A stretch of DNA of 64,000 bases from Acidithiobacillus ferrooxidans ATCC 23270 (GTDB taxonomy: Bacteria > Pseudomonadota > Gammaproteobacteria > Acidithiobacillales > Acidithiobacillaceae). The notes under the pieces were generated by a model. It was given only the letters and a program-made list of their open reading frames with translations, was not told where the DNA came from and searched no databases. Each line of letters opens with the position of its first letter. Position 1 is the stretch's first letter. Positions 44,274 through 52,289 of this stretch are shown in pieces. The position numbers and the translations under genes were made by a program. Where the stretch lies: contig NC_011761.1 of assembly GCF_000021485.1 (NCBI RefSeq), positions 2,262,001 to 2,326,000 on the forward strand. The letters run 5' to 3'.

Positions 44274-45593
44274 TTATCCAGCGGTCTGGCGCTGCAACCA
44301 GCGGTACACCGTTCGCTCACAAACACCCAGCACATCTGCCACCTGGCGCCTGTTACCATGATAGCGACGCAACAATTCGTCGAGGTTGTCAGGGTGCAGT
44401 CCAGTCTTCCCCGGCCCAGGGAGCGACGGTCGCTCTGCTGTCGGCAGGGCTGCTTTGCGCGATACCGCCCAATCCAGATGCCGAGGCTGAATGACCGGGC
44501 CATCCGCCAGCGCCGCCGCCTTTTGCAGAATATTGCGCAACTCCCGCACGTTGCCCGGAAAATCGTAGGCACACAGACGAATCTCCGCCTCCTTGGACAA
44601 GCTCCAACCCCCGCCCCAGTTCCTGCCAATGCGATCCAGCAAAACTTTGGCGATACCCGCGATATCTTCGCGACGCTCACGCAACGGCGGCAAATCAATG
44701 GTAATGGCCGCCAAACGATAATAGAGATCTTCACGAAAGGCCCGCTGCGTCGCCATCTCCAGCAGGTTGCGATTGGTGGCGGCCACTACGCGCACGTCTG
44801 CATGCAGAGTTTCCGCTCCGCCCAGACGCCGAAAGCTACCCGTTTCCAGTACCCGCAGCAGCTTGGCCTGCATGGCAAGCGGTAGTTCACCGACCTCATC
44901 CAGAAACAGAGTGCCGCCATGGGCCATTTCATACAGCCCGCATTTGCGCCCGAGACAACCGGTGAAGGCTCCCCGCTCGTGGCCCAGTATCTCGCTTTCA
45001 AAAAGGGTCTCCGGCAAGGAAGCACAATCGACGGTGATGAAAGGACCACTCGCCCGCACCGAGAACTGATGCAGAGCGTTGGCGGCCAGCTCCTTACCCA
45101 CCCCGCTCTCACCGGACAGCAGGATACTGGCATCCGTCCGCCCTGCCATTTCTAGATGATGCAGACAGCGCATAAAGGCGGGTGAGCGTCCTACCATACG
45201 CAACTCACCGCAGGTGATTTCCTCCTCCTGGCGCGGGAGACGGATGATTTCCTCCCCCAGATACGCATTACCGTCCTGATCCTTGATGGCATGGCCGCGA
45301 ATCCGCACATGCTCGGCATGATTCTGGTGGTCATAATGAATGTGACGCACCTCATGCGCTTCTCCGGTGTTGAACACCGCCTGATGAGGACAATCTTCTC
45401 CACACATGTGACAAGGTACCGGGGAGTGATGGGAGATTTCATGGCAACACTTCCCGACCACCTCATCCGCACGCACGCCATAGGCATCCTGATAGGCGCG
45501 GTTGGCGGCTATAATCCGATAGTCCCGATTGATCAGCACCATGGGATTCTGCTGAATATTGAGGACACTGCCGACATCCAGCCCAATGGACAT
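44274..45593 (-). CDS. fisR: Sigma-54-dependent activator, FisR-like persulfide sensor
   Basis: 439 residues from the ATG at 45593; an ATG at 45656 would add 21. A PAS-like N-terminal domain with a Cys-rich end (CCHEISHHSPVPCHMCGEDCP) is followed by an AAA+ domain (GESGVGKE, GAFTGC, GGTLFLDEV) and a Fis-type HTH ending ERTVYRWLQR. Cys50, Cys61 and Cys68 have the 11- and 7-residue spacing of the three sensing cysteines known for FisR (53, 64, 71). It is divergent from a dsrE-tusA-sqr operon with a sigma-54 promoter. Control of that operon by sulfane sulfur is strongly inferred. Confidence 0.85.
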   Translation of the reverse strand: MSIGLDVGSVLNIQQNPMVLINRDYRIIAANRAYQDAYGVRADEVVGKCCHEISHHSPVPCHMCGEDCPHQAVFNTGEAHEVRHIHYDHQNHAEHVRIRGHAIKDQDGNAYLGEEIIRLPRQEEEITCGELRMVGRSPAFMRCLHHLEMAGRTDASILLSGESGVGKELAANALHQFSVRASGPFITVDCASLPETLFESEILGHERGAFTGCLGRKCGLYEMAHGGTLFLDEVGELPLAMQAKLLRVLETGSFRRLGGAETLHADVRVVAATNRNLLEMATQRAFREDLYYRLAAITIDLPPLRERREDIAGIAKVLLDRIGRNWGGGWSLSKEAEIRLCAYDFPGNVRELRNILQKAAALADGPVIQPRHLDWAVSRKAALPTAERPSLPGPGKTGLHPDNLDELLRRYHGNRRQVADVLGVCERTVYRWLQRQTAG

Positions 45594-45790
45594 GTCATTC
45601 CGCCTGGCCGTGCCTTCCGATTTCCCAGATATGGTTCTTTTCCTGTGTTTTATCATATCCAAACCCTTCGGTGTTTCAGCTACGACCGTTCTATGATACG
45701 AATTCTTCTGGCCACCGGATGCAAGAATATTCTTATCACCTCTAAATAATTACTTTTGACGACAAGTTAGAATGTTATGTTTGACTTATT
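45594..45790. other. AT-rich divergent region between activator and sulfur operon
   Basis: Non-coding part of the 398-bp divergent region. It should hold the promoter of the activator gene. No hairpin terminator or small gene was recognised. Confidence 0.5.
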
Positions 45791-45830
45791 TGTCATGACT
45801 GGATTGTCATGACCTGTCATGGCCATGACA
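45791..45830 (+). promoter_or_regulatory. Upstream activator sites with TGTCAT repeats
   Basis: TGTCATGAC occurs at 45791 and 45805, and a perfect 16-bp palindrome TGTCATGGCCATGACA at 45815-45830. They lie about 110-150 bases upstream of the sigma-54 promoter, the usual place for enhancer sites of this activator class. The same palindrome type recurs at 49622. Confidence 0.75.
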
Positions 45831-45941
45831 TGGCATATCAGCCGTCAAAACCATGCAAACTGCAGTACCATAATATTCAGGGAATGTTATTTACCAGAAA
45901 TAACAATGTGGTTAAATAACCTACCATACAATATCATGATC

Positions 45942-45957
45942 TGGCATGCTTTCTGCT
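45942..45957 (+). promoter_or_regulatory. Sigma-54 (RpoN) promoter of the dsrE-tusA-sqr operon
   Basis: TGGCATGCTTTCTGCT matches TGGCAC-N5-TTGC with the invariant GG and GC separated by exactly ten bases. It is 34 bases before the dsrE ATG and divergent from a sigma-54 activator. Confidence 0.82.
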
Positions 45958-45991
45958 TGCTGAGATTGTCCAGTCACAGAGTGAGGTTTTC

Positions 45992-46378
45992 ATGTCGGGG
46001 TTATATATCATCTGTTTGAGCGGGGTGAGAGAGAAGTTGCAGTTTGCGGCGATGGCGGCGTCGGTTGCGGCGGTTTCGGGGTCGGAGGTGCATGTTTTCC
46101 TGTCCATGAATGCCTTTCCCTATTTTGTGAAAGGACACGGCAAGGAGGCTCCGGCGGAAGGTGAGATGGGGCATTGGATGGCCGGACGCAAGGTGCCGCC
46201 ATTCTACCAGATCTTTGAGCAGGCCGTGGAGCTGGGCGATGCCAAAATCTGGGCCTGCTCCATGGCCATGGACGTGATGGGGATCAAGGCGGATGCGCTG
46301 GAAGACATCGTCGCCGGGCCTTTGGGCCTGACCAGGTTCCTCAGCGACGCCGAAGGCGCGCAGGTCCTGACTTTTTAA
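45992..46378 (+). CDS. dsrE: DsrE/DsrF-family sulfur protein
   Basis: 128 residues. It begins [20 protein letters not shown], has a [17 protein letters not shown] strand-loop and a cysteine in [13 protein letters not shown] at the position of the DsrE active cysteine. GAGG precedes the ATG by five bases. It is the first gene of the sigma-54-driven sulfur operon. It likely carries sulfur together with the TusA homologue that follows. Confidence 0.88.
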
Positions 46379-46381
46379 AAT

Positions 46382-46399
46382 CGCCGCGCCGGCGCGGCG
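46382..46399. repeat. 18-bp perfect GC palindrome between dsrE and tusA
   Basis: CGCCGCGCCGGCGCGGCG is its own reverse complement. It begins three bases after the dsrE stop and has no T tract. A role in mRNA stability or processing within the operon is possible. Confidence 0.7.
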
Positions 46400-46421
46400 C
46401 GCGCAAGCATAGGAGTGGTAG

Positions 46422-46652
46422 ATGAGTGAAAGAATCGTAGATGCCCGCGGCAGTTTTTGCCCCGGGCCGCTGATGGAGCTGATTTCCAGCATGAAGATGA
46501 TGAGTGTCGGCGACACCCTGGAACTGTTGTCCACCGACGCCGGTTCCGCTGCGGATGTACCGGAGTGGATCCAAAAGGTCGGTCACGAAATGCTGGATAC
46601 CCGACAGGATGATGCGGGCACCTGGCACATCCGGGTGCGCAAGACCAAGTAG
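46422..46652 (+). CDS. tusA: TusA-family sulfur carrier (CPGP variant)
   Basis: 76 residues with VDARGSFCPGPLMELISSMK; the active cysteine at residue 13 lies in CPGP rather than CPLP. This variant is typical of TusA homologues encoded with sqr-type flavoproteins. AGGAG lies upstream. It probably passes sulfane sulfur between the DsrE protein and the flavoprotein product. Confidence 0.92.
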   Translation: MSERIVDARGSFCPGPLMELISSMKMMSVGDTLELLSTDAGSAADVPEWIQKVGHEMLDTRQDDAGTWHIRVRKTK

Positions 46653-46694
46653 CACGACGTCCAACCAGTACACAGACCAACAAGGAGTGACACC

Positions 46695-47834
46695 ATGAGA
46701 ATTCTCGTCGTCGGTGGGGGTATGGGGGGCACCATTTTCGCCAATCATCTGGCCCGCCGTATCCACCATGAAATGAAAACCGGCAAGGCGCGCATCACCA
46801 TGCTCTCGGCCAGCCACGAACACGTCTATCAGCCCGGCTGGCTTTATGTGGCCATGGGCCGGACGACCCCGGATGAACTGGTCCGCGAACAGCAGGGCCT
46901 GCTGGAGCCCGGTATCGAGTTTCATGTCGATCCCGTGGAGGAGTTTCATCTGGCTGACAATCATGTCCAGTGCAAGAGCGGCAAGGTCCATGAGTATGAT
47001 GTCATCGTCATTTCCACCGGCTCCCGTCCCATGCCAGAAAACATCCCCGGCCTCAAGGAGAACTCCATCAACTGTTATACCGCGGAGAATGCGGTGGAGT
47101 TCTTCCGGCAACTCTCGGACTTCAAGGGGGGGCGCATCGTCGTCACCGTCGGTCTGCCGCACAAGTGTCCGATGATCCCGCTGGAAATCACCTTCGCCAT
47201 GCACGATTTCATTCAGGATCGTGGCCTGCTGGACAAGACCGAGTTCTACTACACCTATCCCATCGGTCGGGTGCACAGCCTGGAGAATGTGGCGAAGTGG
47301 GCGGCACCGGAATTCGACCGGATGGGCATCCAGTACGAGACCCTGTTCAACATGAAGGAAGTCGATGGCAAAAATGCCCAGGTTCTCAGTGAGGAGGGGG
47401 GTGCCGTCAAGTATGACCTGTTGGTGGCGGTGCCGCCGCACAAGGGTCAGGAAGTCATCGAGAAGAATGGCCTCGGGGAGAATGGCTGGATTCCTACCAA
47501 CCGCACGTCCCTGCACATGGAAGGGGAATACGGCAAGAATGTCATCATCCTGGGGGATACCACCAACCTGCCGATCAGCAAGGCCGGCTCCACCACGCAT
47601 TTCGAGGCAGAGGTTGCCGCCGAAAATGTCGCGGCGGTGATCAAGATCGGGCGGCCGGTACGCAGTTACGATGGCAAGGTCTTCTGCTTCATAGAAGCGG
47701 GCAAGGATCGCGCCACGTATGCCATGTTTGATTACCAGCATCCTCCGCAGCCCAAGGCCCCGACCGGTGCGGTCCATGCCTTCAAGATGGCCTACAACCA
47801 GCTCTATTGGGCCAGTGCCCGCGGCTTGCTCTAA
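46695..47834 (+). CDS. sqr: Sulfide:quinone oxidoreductase-like flavoprotein
   Basis: 379 residues. The FAD motif is LVVGGGMGGTIFANHLA; a second segment is YDVIVISTGSRP. Cys127, Cys158 (GLPHKCPMIP) and Cys331 (KVFCFIEAG) sit where the three SQR cysteines are expected, and the C-terminus is hydrophobic enough for membrane attachment. It should oxidise sulfide or persulfide to sulfane sulfur and reduce quinone at the inner membrane. It lies between tusA and DUF1641. Other FAD-dependent oxidoreductases of the family cannot be excluded. Confidence 0.87.
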   Translation: MRILVVGGGMGGTIFANHLARRIHHEMKTGKARITMLSASHEHVYQPGWLYVAMGRTTPDELVREQQGLLEPGIEFHVDPVEEFHLADNHVQCKSGKVHEYDVIVISTGSRPMPENIPGLKENSINCYTAENAVEFFRQLSDFKGGRIVVTVGLPHKCPMIPLEITFAMHDFIQDRGLLDKTEFYYTYPIGRVHSLENVAKWAAPEFDRMGIQYETLFNMKEVDGKNAQVLSEEGGAVKYDLLVAVPPHKGQEVIEKNGLGENGWIPTNRTSLHMEGEYGKNVIILGDTTNLPISKAGSTTHFEAEVAAENVAAVIKIGRPVRSYDGKVFCFIEAGKDRATYAMFDYQHPPQPKAPTGAVHAFKMAYNQLYWASARGLL

Positions 47835-47846
47835 GGGAGGTGATCT

Positions 47847-48473
47847 ATGACGGCTGTTATGGCGGAAACCTCCCACGAGGAGGAGCTGGCCAAGGCCCGG
47901 GAGGCCCTGGGGCATCTGGTGGAAAACGGGGATCTGGAGCGTATCGTGCATCTGGCGCGTCTGGTCGGTGCCGCGCAGGATTCCATGAGCGACGAAATGG
48001 TCGGACGGATGGCGGGTCTGGCCAGCGACGGCCTCGACCTGCTGGACCGGGTCCATCGCAGTCAGGTCGTCCATGCCCTGCCCGCCATCTCCGCGCTGGT
48101 GGAGAATGGGGATCTGGAGCGTATCGTGCACCTGGCGCGTCTGGTCGGTGCCGCGCAGGATTCCATGAGCGACGAAATCGTGACGCGCTTGGCGGGCATG
48201 GCCAGCAAGGCCCTGTGCCTGCTCGACCAGGCTACCCGCACCGGCGTCATGGAGCGGATGGTGACGGTGGCGGAAAAGATGGATCAGGAGCATATCCTGA
48301 CCGATTTCCTCCGCTGCCTGGCCGGGGCTACGGAAGAAGCGGCCCATGCCCCCCCTCCCAAAGGCGGCCTCACCGGACTCTGGGAACTGATAAAACAACC
48401 GGAAACCCAGCAAACCATCCAGTTCCTCATGCTCCTCGGCAAACACTTCCGATCCTGCCGACTCAAACACTGA
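47847..48473 (+). CDS. DUF1641 protein with internal duplication
   Basis: 208 residues, helical. DUF1641 proteins accompany sqr-type flavoproteins and some formate dehydrogenases. The segment GDLERIVHLARLVGAAQDSM is present twice, 60 residues apart (about residues 28 and 88), matching a DNA repeat. The second half holds TVAEKMDQEHILTDFL and a terminal GLWELIKQPETQQTIQFLM helix. It ends the sulfur operon, ahead of a terminator. Its function is unknown; a membrane-association or scaffold role for the flavoprotein is inferred. Confidence 0.82.
   Translation: MTAVMAETSHEEELAKAREALGHLVENGDLERIVHLARLVGAAQDSMSDEMVGRMAGLASDGLDLLDRVHRSQVVHALPAISALVENGDLERIVHLARLVGAAQDSMSDEIVTRLAGMASKALCLLDQATRTGVMERMVTVAEKMDQEHILTDFLRCLAGATEEAAHAPPPKGGLTGLWELIKQPETQQTIQFLMLLGKHFRSCRLKH
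47928..48178 (+). repeat. 71-bp direct repeat within the DUF1641 gene
   Basis: Positions 47928-47998 and 48108-48178 are identical except for one base (47951 t, 48131 c). The offset is exactly 180 bases, so 60 codons have been duplicated in frame. Confidence 0.95.
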
Positions 48474-48524
48474 GGCCCCACCGCAACCATTCATTTTTAA
48501 AAGTGTTCCACTCGCCCCGCTTGT

Positions 48525-48552
48525 AGCTCCCTGATCTTCCGGGAGCTTTTTT
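48525..48552 (+). terminator. Rho-independent terminator of the sulfur operon
   Basis: A seven-base stem (48525-48531 with 48541-48547) with a nine-base loop is followed by a T run to 48552. It lies 52 bases after the DUF1641 stop. Confidence 0.9.
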
Positions 48553-48952
48553 CTGTGGCCCCGTATGTCAGTAACTGTAAACCAGCCCCACCGTACCACG
48601 AATATCATTGATGGCCGCATTGCCGTTCAGATTGGGGCAAATCGGCGCTTTGGGCAGGATCGATCTTCTGGAGGAAGTCGAAAGCAGAAGGTATCCGCCA
48701 GCGCCACGGATTGTGCCAACGATAGTCAAGGCACGCGGGAGGCGAACGGTTGACGACCATGGACAATCAACGTTATAAGTTGGTTGTTCGTTCAAGAACT
48801 CGCCCAGCTTGAATCGCTCCATTTCTGACACGAACAACTTAATCACCAATCAAAATGCCAGGTTGTTGCATACGTTAATCATTAGCCGACAGCATGTTAT
48901 TGAGATTATGAGACGGACCCACATAAAGAGTCATGATTGATGAAAGCTAATA
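48553..48952. other. Gene-poor stretch with a possible outer-membrane protein remnant
   Basis: 400 bases without a convincing gene. On the minus strand 48568-48849 is open and ends INDIRGTVGLVYSY, the kind of aromatic C-terminus seen in outer-membrane beta-barrels. The first two thirds of that frame look random, and an adjacent frame looks more protein-like between 48620 and 48715, so a frameshifted remnant is possible. The right end should hold the promoter of the methyltransferase gene. Confidence 0.3.
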
Positions 48953-49564
48953 ATGAATAATATACATTGGGATAAGATTTACACCGAGAAAGCATCGACC
49001 ACGGTGAGTTGGTACTGTGACCATGATGAGACATCGTTACAACTGCTGGATGAGATGGATTTGAGGCCACAGGACGCGATTATCGATGTCGGTGGTGGCG
49101 CATCCACATGGGTCGATGACCTGATTGGGCGCGGATTTTCCAGAATCTCCATACTTGATCTCTCCGCTGCCGCACTGGCTGTGACCCAACAACGTCTTGG
49201 GAAGTATCCGGGCACCGTGAAGTGGATCGTCGGGGATGTGCTGGAAACGCCCCTGCCGCAGGCAAACTTCTCTTTATGGCATGACCGCGCCGTTTTTCAT
49301 TTTCTGACGGACAAAAAACAGCGCCAACGCTACGTTCAGGTATTGAGCGACGCCTTAAAGCCAGGTGGTCATGTCATCATATCCACCTTCGCAGAAGACG
49401 GTCCTACCCAATGCAGCGAACTTCCAGTGTGTCGTTATAGCCCTGAACAATTGCGTTCTGAGTTTGGGACATTATTTACGCTTATTTCCCATAATCACGT
49501 GATACACCGCACCCCGGCAGGGAAAAACCAGGCTTTTACGTATTGCCATTTTCAGATCATTTGA
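48953..49564 (+). CDS. Class I SAM-dependent methyltransferase
   Basis: 203 residues. It has the SAM-binding motif I AIIDVGGGASTWVDDL, the acidic ISILDLSAAAL, motif WIVGDVLETPLP and a post-motif LKPGGHVIIST. The N-terminus HWDKIYTEKASTTVSWY resembles thiopurine/tellurite-type small-molecule methyltransferases. The substrate is unknown. The ribosome site is weak. Lower GC and different style from neighbours hint at transfer. It precedes the small peptide gene by 147 bases. Confidence 0.85.
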   Translation: MNNIHWDKIYTEKASTTVSWYCDHDETSLQLLDEMDLRPQDAIIDVGGGASTWVDDLIGRGFSRISILDLSAAALAVTQQRLGKYPGTVKWIVGDVLETPLPQANFSLWHDRAVFHFLTDKKQRQRYVQVLSDALKPGGHVIISTFAEDGPTQCSELPVCRYSPEQLRSEFGTLFTLISHNHVIHRTPAGKNQAFTYCHFQII

Positions 49565-49621
49565 ACTACCTGACCATGCCGCTGACCTTTGCAAGGGGGT
49601 CCATACCTTTTGAATGCAAAT

Positions 49622-49637
49622 TGTCATATATATGACA
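49622..49637 (+). promoter_or_regulatory. TGTCAT-N4-ATGACA palindrome before the peptide gene
   Basis: TGTCATATATATGACA is a perfect 16-bp palindrome, 74 bases before the 51-residue gene. Its arms are the same as those of the palindrome at 45815-45830. No matching sigma-54 promoter was found between it and the gene. Confidence 0.65.
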
Positions 49638-49711
49638 TGCCACCTTCATCGTACTGTCACATTTCGTCTGTATGCTTAGGGATTGTTGAAAGCGAACGGC
49701 AAGGAGACGAC

Positions 49712-49867
49712 ATGGCTACATCACTTGGCTACGGCGGCTACCGGGAGCCACTGTGTGGTAACTGCCCAGAGAATGGTCAGCAACAGTTCAACCAGACGAT
49801 GACGGCCTTGGTACATAAAAATTATGCCCTGTGGACCGGGAATGCTGCCCGCATTTACAAGCAGTGA
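49712..49867 (+). CDS. Small peptide gene, 51 residues, upstream of ABC transporter
   Basis: An AAGGAG site six bases from the ATG supports it; a longer in-frame start at 49589 would cover the palindrome and is rejected. The product begins MATSLGYGGYREPLCGNCPE, with a Gly/Tyr-rich leader and a CGNC pair, and ends polar and basic (GNAARIYKQ). No signal peptide or membrane helix is seen. It is followed after 65 bases by an ABC ATPase and its permease. It could be an exported or modified peptide, or a small regulator or metal-binding partner. The family is not recognised. Confidence 0.7.
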   Translation: MATSLGYGGYREPLCGNCPENGQQQFNQTMTALVHKNYALWTGNAARIYKQ

Positions 49868-49932: not shown

Positions 49933-50856
49933 ATGTCTGCTGGAATCCAGTCCAACATGGCAGTTAATGCTCAGGATCATCTCCTGTACTGCAATCACCT
50001 GGGCAAATGCTTTGCCAATAAAGAAGTGCTTCGTGATATTCAGTTAACGGCAGAACCGGGCGATATTGTGGCCCTATTGGGACCCAATGGCGCGGGTAAA
50101 TCAACATTGATGGGCTGCCTCATCGGTCTGCTGGAACCCAGCACAGGGCAGGCCCTGGTTTTTGGCAAACCCGCGACCGAACTTTCGGAAGAAGATCGAT
50201 CCAGAATGGGGTATGTCCCGCAGAGTTTTCAAGGATTTTCTTGGTTGCGGGTGCAAGAATTGATCGAGTATCTGGGACAATTCTATCCCAAGGCTAGGCG
50301 CGCTCTGTCACCCACATTGCACGCGTGGGCTGACCTGGATCCCAAGACGCGCATCAAAAATCTCTCTGGCGGCCAGCGACAACGCCTGTCTATCCTGCTT
50401 GCGCTGCGCCATCAGCCGGACCTCCTCATTCTGGATGAACCGGTCGCCAGCCTCGATCCCGTTGGACGGCGTGACTTTCTCCAATTGCTGCGCGACTACC
50501 TTCGCGATCGACAAGCCACAGCGTTGATTTCATCCCATATTCTTTCAGATCTGGAACCGGTCGCCACGCAGACGGTGATCATGCTCAATGGCGCGATGCA
50601 TGCGCAGCTGTCCATGGTTCAATTCCGGGAACAGACGCGCTGGATCCGGCGCGATGATGCTGAACCATGGTCTCGGCCGCTACCCGAGGGGCTGCAGGTA
50701 CTGGCTACCGGCGGGGATCAGTACGCCGTGTTAGTTGCCAATTGGAATAGCGCTTGGGCATCCCGTCTCGCCAACCAGGAGTCATCGGAAATTGTGGTTA
50801 CCGCTCCGGCAACCCTCGAATCTGCGTTCCTGGCTATGGTAGGTACCGCAGCATGA
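49933..50856 (+). CDS. ABC transporter ATP-binding protein
   Basis: 307 residues. Walker A is LLGPNGAGKST, the Q-loop is YVPQSFQGF, the signature is LSGGQRQRL and Walker B is LLILDEPVASLD, followed by the switch histidine in SSHILSD. The C-terminal 80 residues form the variable domain of ABC-2-type exporters (CcmA/NatA-like). GAGGG precedes the ATG. It overlaps the permease gene by four bases. Confidence 0.93.
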   Translation: MSAGIQSNMAVNAQDHLLYCNHLGKCFANKEVLRDIQLTAEPGDIVALLGPNGAGKSTLMGCLIGLLEPSTGQALVFGKPATELSEEDRSRMGYVPQSFQGFSWLRVQELIEYLGQFYPKARRALSPTLHAWADLDPKTRIKNLSGGQRQRLSILLALRHQPDLLILDEPVASLDPVGRRDFLQLLRDYLRDRQATALISSHILSDLEPVATQTVIMLNGAMHAQLSMVQFREQTRWIRRDDAEPWSRPLPEGLQVLATGGDQYAVLVANWNSAWASRLANQESSEIVVTAPATLESAFLAMVGTAA

Positions 50857-52289
50857 ATAAGAATCCGAGCCTGCGCAGCTATATCGGCATGCCTCTGTTT
50901 CGCGATAACCCTTTGGCTGCCATTAGCGCGCTATTTCTCATCCCATTTGGGGTGCTGCTGGCACTTCCTGCCCATACTATCGATCCCCACCATCCCCAAC
51001 ATGCCTGGGCCCAGCATGGTTTCCGTTTCGTCCTGATTATGTTCTGTGTGTATCTGTATGGCGGACTATTGCTCCACTACTGGCGCCAAGTCACGGAGCC
51101 TCTGGCCGTGACCGTACCGGGATTCATTCGCCTGCATCGCCAGACGGCACGATGGCTTATTTTGGGTGCGAGTACGTTGCTCTTCCTAGCACTGCTGAGC
51201 TTCCATGCACCGTGGCCGGGAGCCTTGGTTTTGACGGGTCTTTTTACGCTCCTCGGTACCGGATTTGGCGGACTTCGCGTCCCCTGGAAGAAGCGGCGGT
51301 GGTTGCAATACGTCCTACTCGGATTGTTGCTGCTTTTTTATATACCGCTGCTGATCAGCGGATCACTCTACTGGGATATTGGCACACTACCGCCGCTCTG
51401 GGCGTTACCCATAACGGTGATTCTTTGGTCGTCGATCATGGCTACCCTGTTCTTCCGGCCCGAGCGGTTACGCTCCTTGGCTGAAACGCAGGAGACACGA
51501 TTCGATGCGCAGACACACGATCAGCCTGCCAACACACGCTGGTCCGTCTCCCGGAATTGGCGGGCATTGGCCCGATGGACACCACAGACGTGGAGAAACC
51601 CGCTTGTTTTGTACCCCATGGGGGTTCCCAGCGTCCTTCTGATAGGGACGGCGGGGGTGCTGGTGACATTACTCACTTCGGTGATCGGCGAACAAATGAC
51701 GCATCCCAACCTCTCTGCCGTTTTTATGCATCATGCCGCTATTCTGAGTGTGGGTATGGGCGGGACATTAACCGTTTTGCTCGTCAGTATGGCGAACGGT
51801 CATTGGATTCAGCAGGACGCAGACTGGCGAACGGTTTTCCTGACCGGGCTATGGGGAAGCAAAACACGATTCTGCCAGCAAGCCATGCGCCATCATGCAC
51901 GTCAGAGCATTTTCCTGGCCGGAGTGCTTGCGCTGACGATACTCGTCCTATCGATTTCGCTTCTGTCGTTACAGATTCTACAGGGCATAGCGCTCATGGC
52001 ATTTCTATTTACGACGACACTCTGGTTGAGCTACGCCTTTTTCTTCGCCTATATGTTCGGCTTGCGCATTGCTGCTCAAAAAAAGATCATCCAATCGCTG
52101 GTATTCGGATCATCCTACTTTCTGGTAAACCTCGGCCTGCTAGCGCTGCTGCAGTCGTCAACCGGTTTCATGCTTTGGTTCCTGGGACTTTGCATGCCCT
52201 TGTTACTGGTTATCTGGGTGTTTTTCACCCATCGACAGGCAGCTCGCAAAATGGGGCGGGAAGACTGGAAGCTTGATGCCACCGCTTAA
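50853..52289 (+). CDS. ABC transporter permease, polytopic
   Basis: 478 residues from the ATG overlapping the ATPase stop. There are about eleven to twelve hydrophobic helices in two blocks, separated by a polar loop near residues 205-245 (rich in Arg, Thr and Gln). This layout fits an ABC-2-type export permease, in which one long protein serves as both halves or dimerises. The substrate cannot be read; the neighbouring peptide is one option. Confidence 0.85.
   Translation: MNKNPSLRSYIGMPLFRDNPLAAISALFLIPFGVLLALPAHTIDPHHPQHAWAQHGFRFVLIMFCVYLYGGLLLHYWRQVTEPLAVTVPGFIRLHRQTARWLILGASTLLFLALLSFHAPWPGALVLTGLFTLLGTGFGGLRVPWKKRRWLQYVLLGLLLLFYIPLLISGSLYWDIGTLPPLWALPITVILWSSIMATLFFRPERLRSLAETQETRFDAQTHDQPANTRWSVSRNWRALARWTPQTWRNPLVLYPMGVPSVLLIGTAGVLVTLLTSVIGEQMTHPNLSAVFMHHAAILSVGMGGTLTVLLVSMANGHWIQQDADWRTVFLTGLWGSKTRFCQQAMRHHARQSIFLAGVLALTILVLSISLLSLQILQGIALMAFLFTTTLWLSYAFFFAYMFGLRIAAQKKIIQSLVFGSSYFLVNLGLLALLQSSTGFMLWFLGLCMPLLLVIWVFFTHRQAARKMGREDWKLDATA

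Follow-up and report, generated by a model that had tools for sequence, protein, structure and literature searches.

Do two copies of the same palindrome, 3.8 kb apart, reveal one regulator that acts on two gene groups? In the window (the whole 64,000-nt stretch of Acidithiobacillus ferrooxidans ATCC 23270 DNA that was analysed), perfect 16-bp palindromes of the form TGTCAT-N4-ATGACA lie at 45815-45830 (site 1) and 49622-49637 (site 2), exactly where the first-pass annotation had placed them, and the extra TGTCATGAC copies that it had seen beside site 1 are found at 45791 and 45805. It had proposed that a single regulator, probably the adjacent FisR-like activator, controls both the sqr operon and a peptide/ABC locus, which would tie the latter to sulfane sulfur stress. 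The analysis described here points to another reading, to which we give a probability of about 0.88: the palindromes would be by-products of two unrelated cis-elements, the UAS of an activator at site 1 and a PHO box at site 2 (Table 1). Both elements are known kinds of gene switch, built from ordinary parts, and the value of the result lies in the correction and in a Pho-regulon prediction. The switch at site 1 probably serves sulfide handling and that at site 2 phosphate starvation; since the palindromes would then belong to two different switches, the two gene groups would not be tied together.

Table 1. Features around the two palindromes, with positions in the window
Feature	Position	Strand	Remarks
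FisR-like sigma-54 activator	44274..45662	-	PAS, AAA+ with GAFTG loop, C-terminal HTH
Site 1, enhancer-like array	45791..45830	.	TGTCATGACT at 45791, TGTCATGACC at 45805; a third, degenerate unit runs into the N4 palindrome
Sigma-54 type -24/-12 motif	45943..45956	+	GGCATGCTTTCTGC; GGCA-N8-GC at 13/13 dsrE-adjacent loci
Genes for dsrE-like protein, tusA, SQR-like flavoprotein, protein of unknown family (47847-48473)	45992..48473	+	Pfam
Site 2, candidate PHO box	49622..49665	+	four 11-bp units: TGTCATATATA TGACATGCCAC CTTCATCGTAC TGTCACATTTC
-10 hexamer TATGCT	49671..49676	+	5 nt past the box (GTCTG between), as at pstS
51-aa ORF ('peptide')	49712..49867	+	probably relic of a longer protein with signal-like start
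ABC transporter ATPase	49933..50856	+	PF00005, E 8.5e-29
Putative ABC permease	50853..52289	+	478 aa; no Pfam or NCBIfam family

Occurrence of the palindrome

How often is such a palindrome expected? Shuffled versions of the window contain a mean of 0.00 copies. The whole genome (one contig of 2,982,397 bp) has three places and none of the reversed control pattern, against about 0.07 palindromes expected from composition alone at an assumed GC content of 0.587. The genomic excess of the motif is real. The third copy, at 1690386-1690401, lies upstream of pstS and within a PHO box; by element, the palindrome is thus found twice in a PHO box and once in an enhancer-like array. Because these copies belong to two kinds of TGTCAT-rich element, the resemblance between them does not argue for a single operator: unrelated elements with a common TGTCAT word can yield the same perfect palindrome. 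A PHO box gives rise to it when the last base of its first unit is A and its second unit starts with TGACA in place of TGTCA.

Among the 31 genomes of the order there are nine palindrome places. PHO-box scores are reached at five: pstS, site 2 of G000, G003, and G007, and a place in G020 that lacks a -10 hexamer where one usually stands. Of the remaining four, one belongs to the FisR array and three to neither element.

Site 1 and the FisR-like activator

What kind of regulator is encoded next to site 1? The divergent gene product has Pfam matches above cut-off to PF00158, PAS_4, and HTH_23, with HTH_8 below cut-off, and it combines the features of the FisR family: a sigma-54 interaction domain with a GAFTG loop, an HTH, and a sensor domain. 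Within its PAS domain, the translation reads a Cys-rich segment, CCHEISHHSPVPCHMCGEDCPH. A sigma-54 gene is present in the genome. FisR with sigma-54 reportedly controls sulfide oxidation genes in Cupriavidus pinatubonensis. Like that FisR, the protein encoded here is a PAS-AAA-HTH activator with sulfide-oxidation-type neighbours, a Cys-rich sensor segment, and a -24/-12 motif; unlike it, the target set consists of dsrE, tusA, an SQR-like gene, and a gene of unknown family. The name sqr is a family-level guess because the NCBIfam match to type III SQR is below cut-off, and NCBIfam holds no name for the last operon gene, the dsrE-like protein, or the ABC permease. Part of one report describes FisR as sensing RSS through three conserved Cys (PMC9774590).

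Which features of site 1 are shared by related loci? The array of TGTCATGACA-like units lies ~130-150 bp upstream of the sigma-54 promoter motif. In the window, 10-mers that match TGTCATGACA at 9/10 or better occur twice, both at site 1, and the exact TGTCATGAC pair has a single occurrence in the genome. The comparison among relatives suggested earlier was made with 23 FisR homologues from 21 genomes (L002, a duplicate of L017, was dropped). All 13 homologues with dsrE adjacent have at least two TGTCATGACA-like units (>=9/10) together with GGCA-N8-GC, the units overlapping in one case (L020). The repeated palindromic units, the downstream GG-N10-GC, and the conservation that mark the UAS of a sigma-54 activator are found at 13/13 FisR/dsrE loci, that of site 1 among them. 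By contrast, the N4 palindrome is present only at the own locus, 1/13, and so lacks the conservation at FisR target promoters expected of a FisR operator; in G007, whose activator is 98% identical, TGTCATGACTTACCATGG stands in its place. Ten homologues have no dsrE found adjacent: two units are present at L023, which is at a contig end, and at L038, in G017; L035 has a single unit, and the remaining seven have none.

The presence of array and motif at every dsrE-adjacent locus, and of the palindrome at one, suggests that site 1 is probably the enhancer of the FisR-like activator, with binding of the array attributed to FisR through guilt by association. For site 1, the guess of the first-pass annotation is plausible and has been strengthened, given the conserved array, the sigma-54 motif, the adjacent FisR-like gene, and the dsrE-tusA-sqr-like genes. 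The divergent activator would bind the UAS array of GTCATGAC units and contact sigma-54 polymerase at 45943, switching on the dsrE-tusA-sqr-like genes.

Are comparable elements on record? Parts of a study on A. caldus describe TspR, a sigma-54 activator with a 16-bp palindromic UAS that has an N4 centre, TGTCCCAAATGGGACA (PMC6335251). The TspR UAS, as described there, is a 16-bp palindromic enhancer through which a sigma-54 activator acts on sulfur genes, as site 1 would be; its arms are TGTCCC/GGGACA, as against the conserved unit TGTCATGACA in tandem at site 1. A term search of the main text of PMC7315123 returned no published FisR operator, and titles and abstract openings among the matches listed give neither a FisR operator nor a sigma-54 site for the Acidithiobacillus operon. 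The main text of PMC12194929 treats sigma-54 activators of the same class, and the terms sqr, PhoB, and 'Fis family' are absent from it.

Pairs of the TCATGAC word are found in 22 of the 31 genomes, and the reversed control pattern four times in three genomes; the own genome has a further pair at 2745912. Four pairs away from known FisR loci were inspected, two in G016 and one each in G017 and G008. At L154:9898, L155:4526, L156:5323, and L157:5691, TGTCATGACA-like arrays lie upstream of DUF3034-type genes, one of them named by Pfam (PF11231) and the other three from the likeness of their translations. GGC[ACG]-N8-GC follows the array at three of the four DUF3034-type loci inspected. It is possible that these genes are further targets of the FisR-like activator.

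Site 2 and the PHO box of pstS

The PHO box consists of 11-nt direct repeats, of which CTGTCAT is the most conserved motif in E. coli, according to sections of PMC4415409. Site 2 has tandem 11-nt repeats in register, a (C)TGTCAT core, and a -10 hexamer close behind, at the spacing seen at the own pstS. It differs from a typical PHO box in its diverged units 2 and 3 (TGACAT, TTCATC) and in that units 1 and 2 coincidentally form a perfect palindrome, which is made up of unit 1 and the start of unit 2. The genome also encodes a PhoB homologue above cut-off (TIGR02154, 303.8 bits), and parts of PMC2621215 list PhoR/PhoB and pst genes for it.

The third palindrome offers a direct comparison. From translations read by eye, we take the gene downstream of it to be pstS, followed by pst-type permease genes. 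Upstream of pstS stand TGTCATAAAAA TGACATAAATC TTTCATCAAAG TGTCATACTGC, then TATGT and TAGATT; site 2 aligns with this box unit by unit and has the same spacing between box and -10. In 30 pstS upstream regions from 28 of the 31 genomes (L001 and L004, duplicates of L042, were dropped), a four-unit box scoring at least 33 of 43 is present in 20, a two-unit version in seven (L052-L057, L059), and two diverged units in L071; no unit is seen in L058 and L070. The N4 palindrome occurs in one of the 30, the own region. Unit 2 is TGTCAT or TGTCAC in most relatives, so that it is the direct repeat that is kept, not the palindrome. A TA...T hexamer occupies the -10 place in all 18 aligned pstS boxes of relatives, an alignment that omits the own box, L049 (its box equals that of L047), the seven two-unit boxes, L058, L070, and L071.

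How well does site 2 score as a PHO box? A 55-base PHO consensus, composed when site 2 was already known, gives it 31 of 43, the top score over both strands of the window (runner-up 25; mean 9.9, sd 2.8). A position weight matrix (PWM) built from nine selected PHO boxes elsewhere in the genome, namely the own pstS box and 8 of the 16 other matches of the pstS model, with site 2 kept out of the training, gives it 39.2, rank 1 of ~128,000 window positions, with the next at 8.9. The nine training boxes score 29.7-51.3 when each is left out in turn, and the best score in five simulated 3-Mb single strands is 16.1, so that 0/5 reach 39.2. L103 (an indel) and L107-L113 (<=13.1 bits) were left out of the matrix, and the rows of L098 and L099, which have a poor first unit, were registered by hand. 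A pstS-only model, R1, trained on the 18 pstS boxes of relatives, gives site 2 11.9 bits with filters off. Site 2 is absent from the 17 own-genome matches of R1 at a first look, in which 150 of 484 candidates were scored, and scanning the window with default filters does not bring it up either; R1 sets too high a bar for site 2.

From its sequence, spacing, conservation, and profile scores, site 2 would be bound by PhoB~P on four head-to-tail 11-bp units that replace the -35 region, and PhoB~P would recruit sigma-70 polymerase to TATGCT at 49671. The predicted condition is phosphate starvation and the predicted direction of control is activation, with transcription of the ABC ATPase-permease pair as the outcome.

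Could the FisR-like activator bind TGTCAT-N4-ATGACA at both sites all the same? The arms are identical, the genome holds only three copies, and the TspR element, as far as it is described in the parts of PMC6335251 cited above, lends the idea a precedent in its N4-centred 16-bp palindrome. G002, in which no FisR homologue is found at E 1e-120, has a broken palindrome (TGGCA), as a shared FisR operator predicts; the site 2 box is conserved there as in G003 and G007, so the broken palindrome is compatible with either reading and does not decide between them. Against a shared operator, site 2 lacks both a TGTCATGACA unit (>=9/10) and a sigma-54 promoter of the TGG[CT]A type, the third copy is part of the pstS PHO box, and the palindrome marks one FisR/dsrE locus where the TGTCATGACA-like units mark all 13. 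One shared regulator for both units was rejected on these grounds and is very improbable. With site 2 scoring as a PHO box and the third copy within that of pstS, the proposed tie of the ABC locus to sulfane sulfur falls away. The false regulatory link is replaced by two predictions open to test: that several Acidithiobacillaceae have an ABC transporter in their Pho regulon, and that the TGTCATGACA units are the enhancer used by the FisR-like activator.

In a milder version, site 2 would serve as a PHO box and, in addition, be occupied by the FisR-like activator. The palindrome is intact in G000, G003, and G007, all of which have a FisR homologue, but these sequences are nearly identical, so that its conservation is expected anyway, and the missing TGG[CT]A-type promoter again speaks against it; we consider such dual control highly unlikely. 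There is equally little to expect from a composite operator, in which the first two units of the PHO box have been tuned into a palindrome bound by the sulfane-sulfur activator; if it existed, one ABC transporter would integrate phosphate starvation and sulfur stress. Control of both units by PhoB, suggested by the TGTCAT words common to both sites, is the least credible alternative and was rejected, as no PHO score in 45780-45850 exceeds -10.9, whereas the other boxes reach 29.7-51.3, and site 1 reaches 14 of 43 on the PHO consensus.

As to the surroundings of site 2, homology among G000, G002, and G007 breaks less than ~20 nt before the PHO box. The methyltransferase gene upstream (window 48953-49621) adjoins the ABC locus in G007, not in G002.

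The ABC locus and other PHO-box matches

Is the candidate PHO box a general feature of the ABC locus? An ATPase match at E <=1e-60 is found in 12 of the 31 genomes, own included, and at all six distant loci that were inspected, tblastn places a relative of the permease behind the ATPase (E 1.9e-5 to 2.1e-29). In nine of the 12, the top PWM score of the locus falls no more than 330 nt upstream of the ATPase. These nine include site 2 itself and, in G002 and G007, two copies nearly identical to it; at the other six, the ATPase is ~47-49% identical. The six fall into about three box-sequence groups (L011-L013, L015-L016, and L010) and thus count as fewer than six independent cases. The scores of L015 and L016 are low, at 11.4 and 13.1, but the pstS model detects a two-unit box with a -10 in both genomes (E 6.7e-6). 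No PHO match lies upstream of the ABC gene at L008, L009, and L014. The pstS-like alignment, the first rank with the matrix, and the PHO matches at 9/12 loci argue that the ABC locus is probably under PhoB control.

In G003, where no ATPase is found at E 1e-60, the site 2 PHO box is kept (L148, G003:C1:558432) with a permease remnant directly behind it.

The supposed unknown peptide looks like a decaying gene fragment and is probably a gene relic. It is similar to a stretch within the N-terminal half of longer proteins (50-59% over 27-36 residues), which measure 135-136 aa when counted from a chosen Met; the two that were run against Pfam have no family above cut-off. Between G000, G002, and G007, the ORF differs by a 1-nt insertion, the length of a T-run, and a 15-nt gap, and the frame differs; these indels make a conserved peptide unlikely. 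A functional 51-aa peptide was rejected because the relatives are longer, with signal-like starts, and the frame is broken among the three genomes.

Which other genes stand behind PHO-box matches? Pfam was run on the genes behind 10 of the 17 own-genome R1 matches, and the pstS match was read by eye. The products comprise a MotA/ExbB protein, an OprD porin, two TonB plug proteins, a GNAT protein (Acetyltransf_5), a phosphoesterase (with a Tat signal match below cut-off), three Trans_reg_C proteins, and a glycosyltransferase, which starts 443 nt past the box with a DUF2934 gene in between. Many of these kinds of gene are typical of Pho regulons. The Trans_reg_C proteins are encoded at 2022379-2023032 (L100), 2057455-2058099 (L106), and 2620176-2620856 (L105). 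They have no Pfam receiver-domain match and a sub-cut-off match to the PhoB profile over most of its length; perhaps they are auxiliary phosphate regulators.
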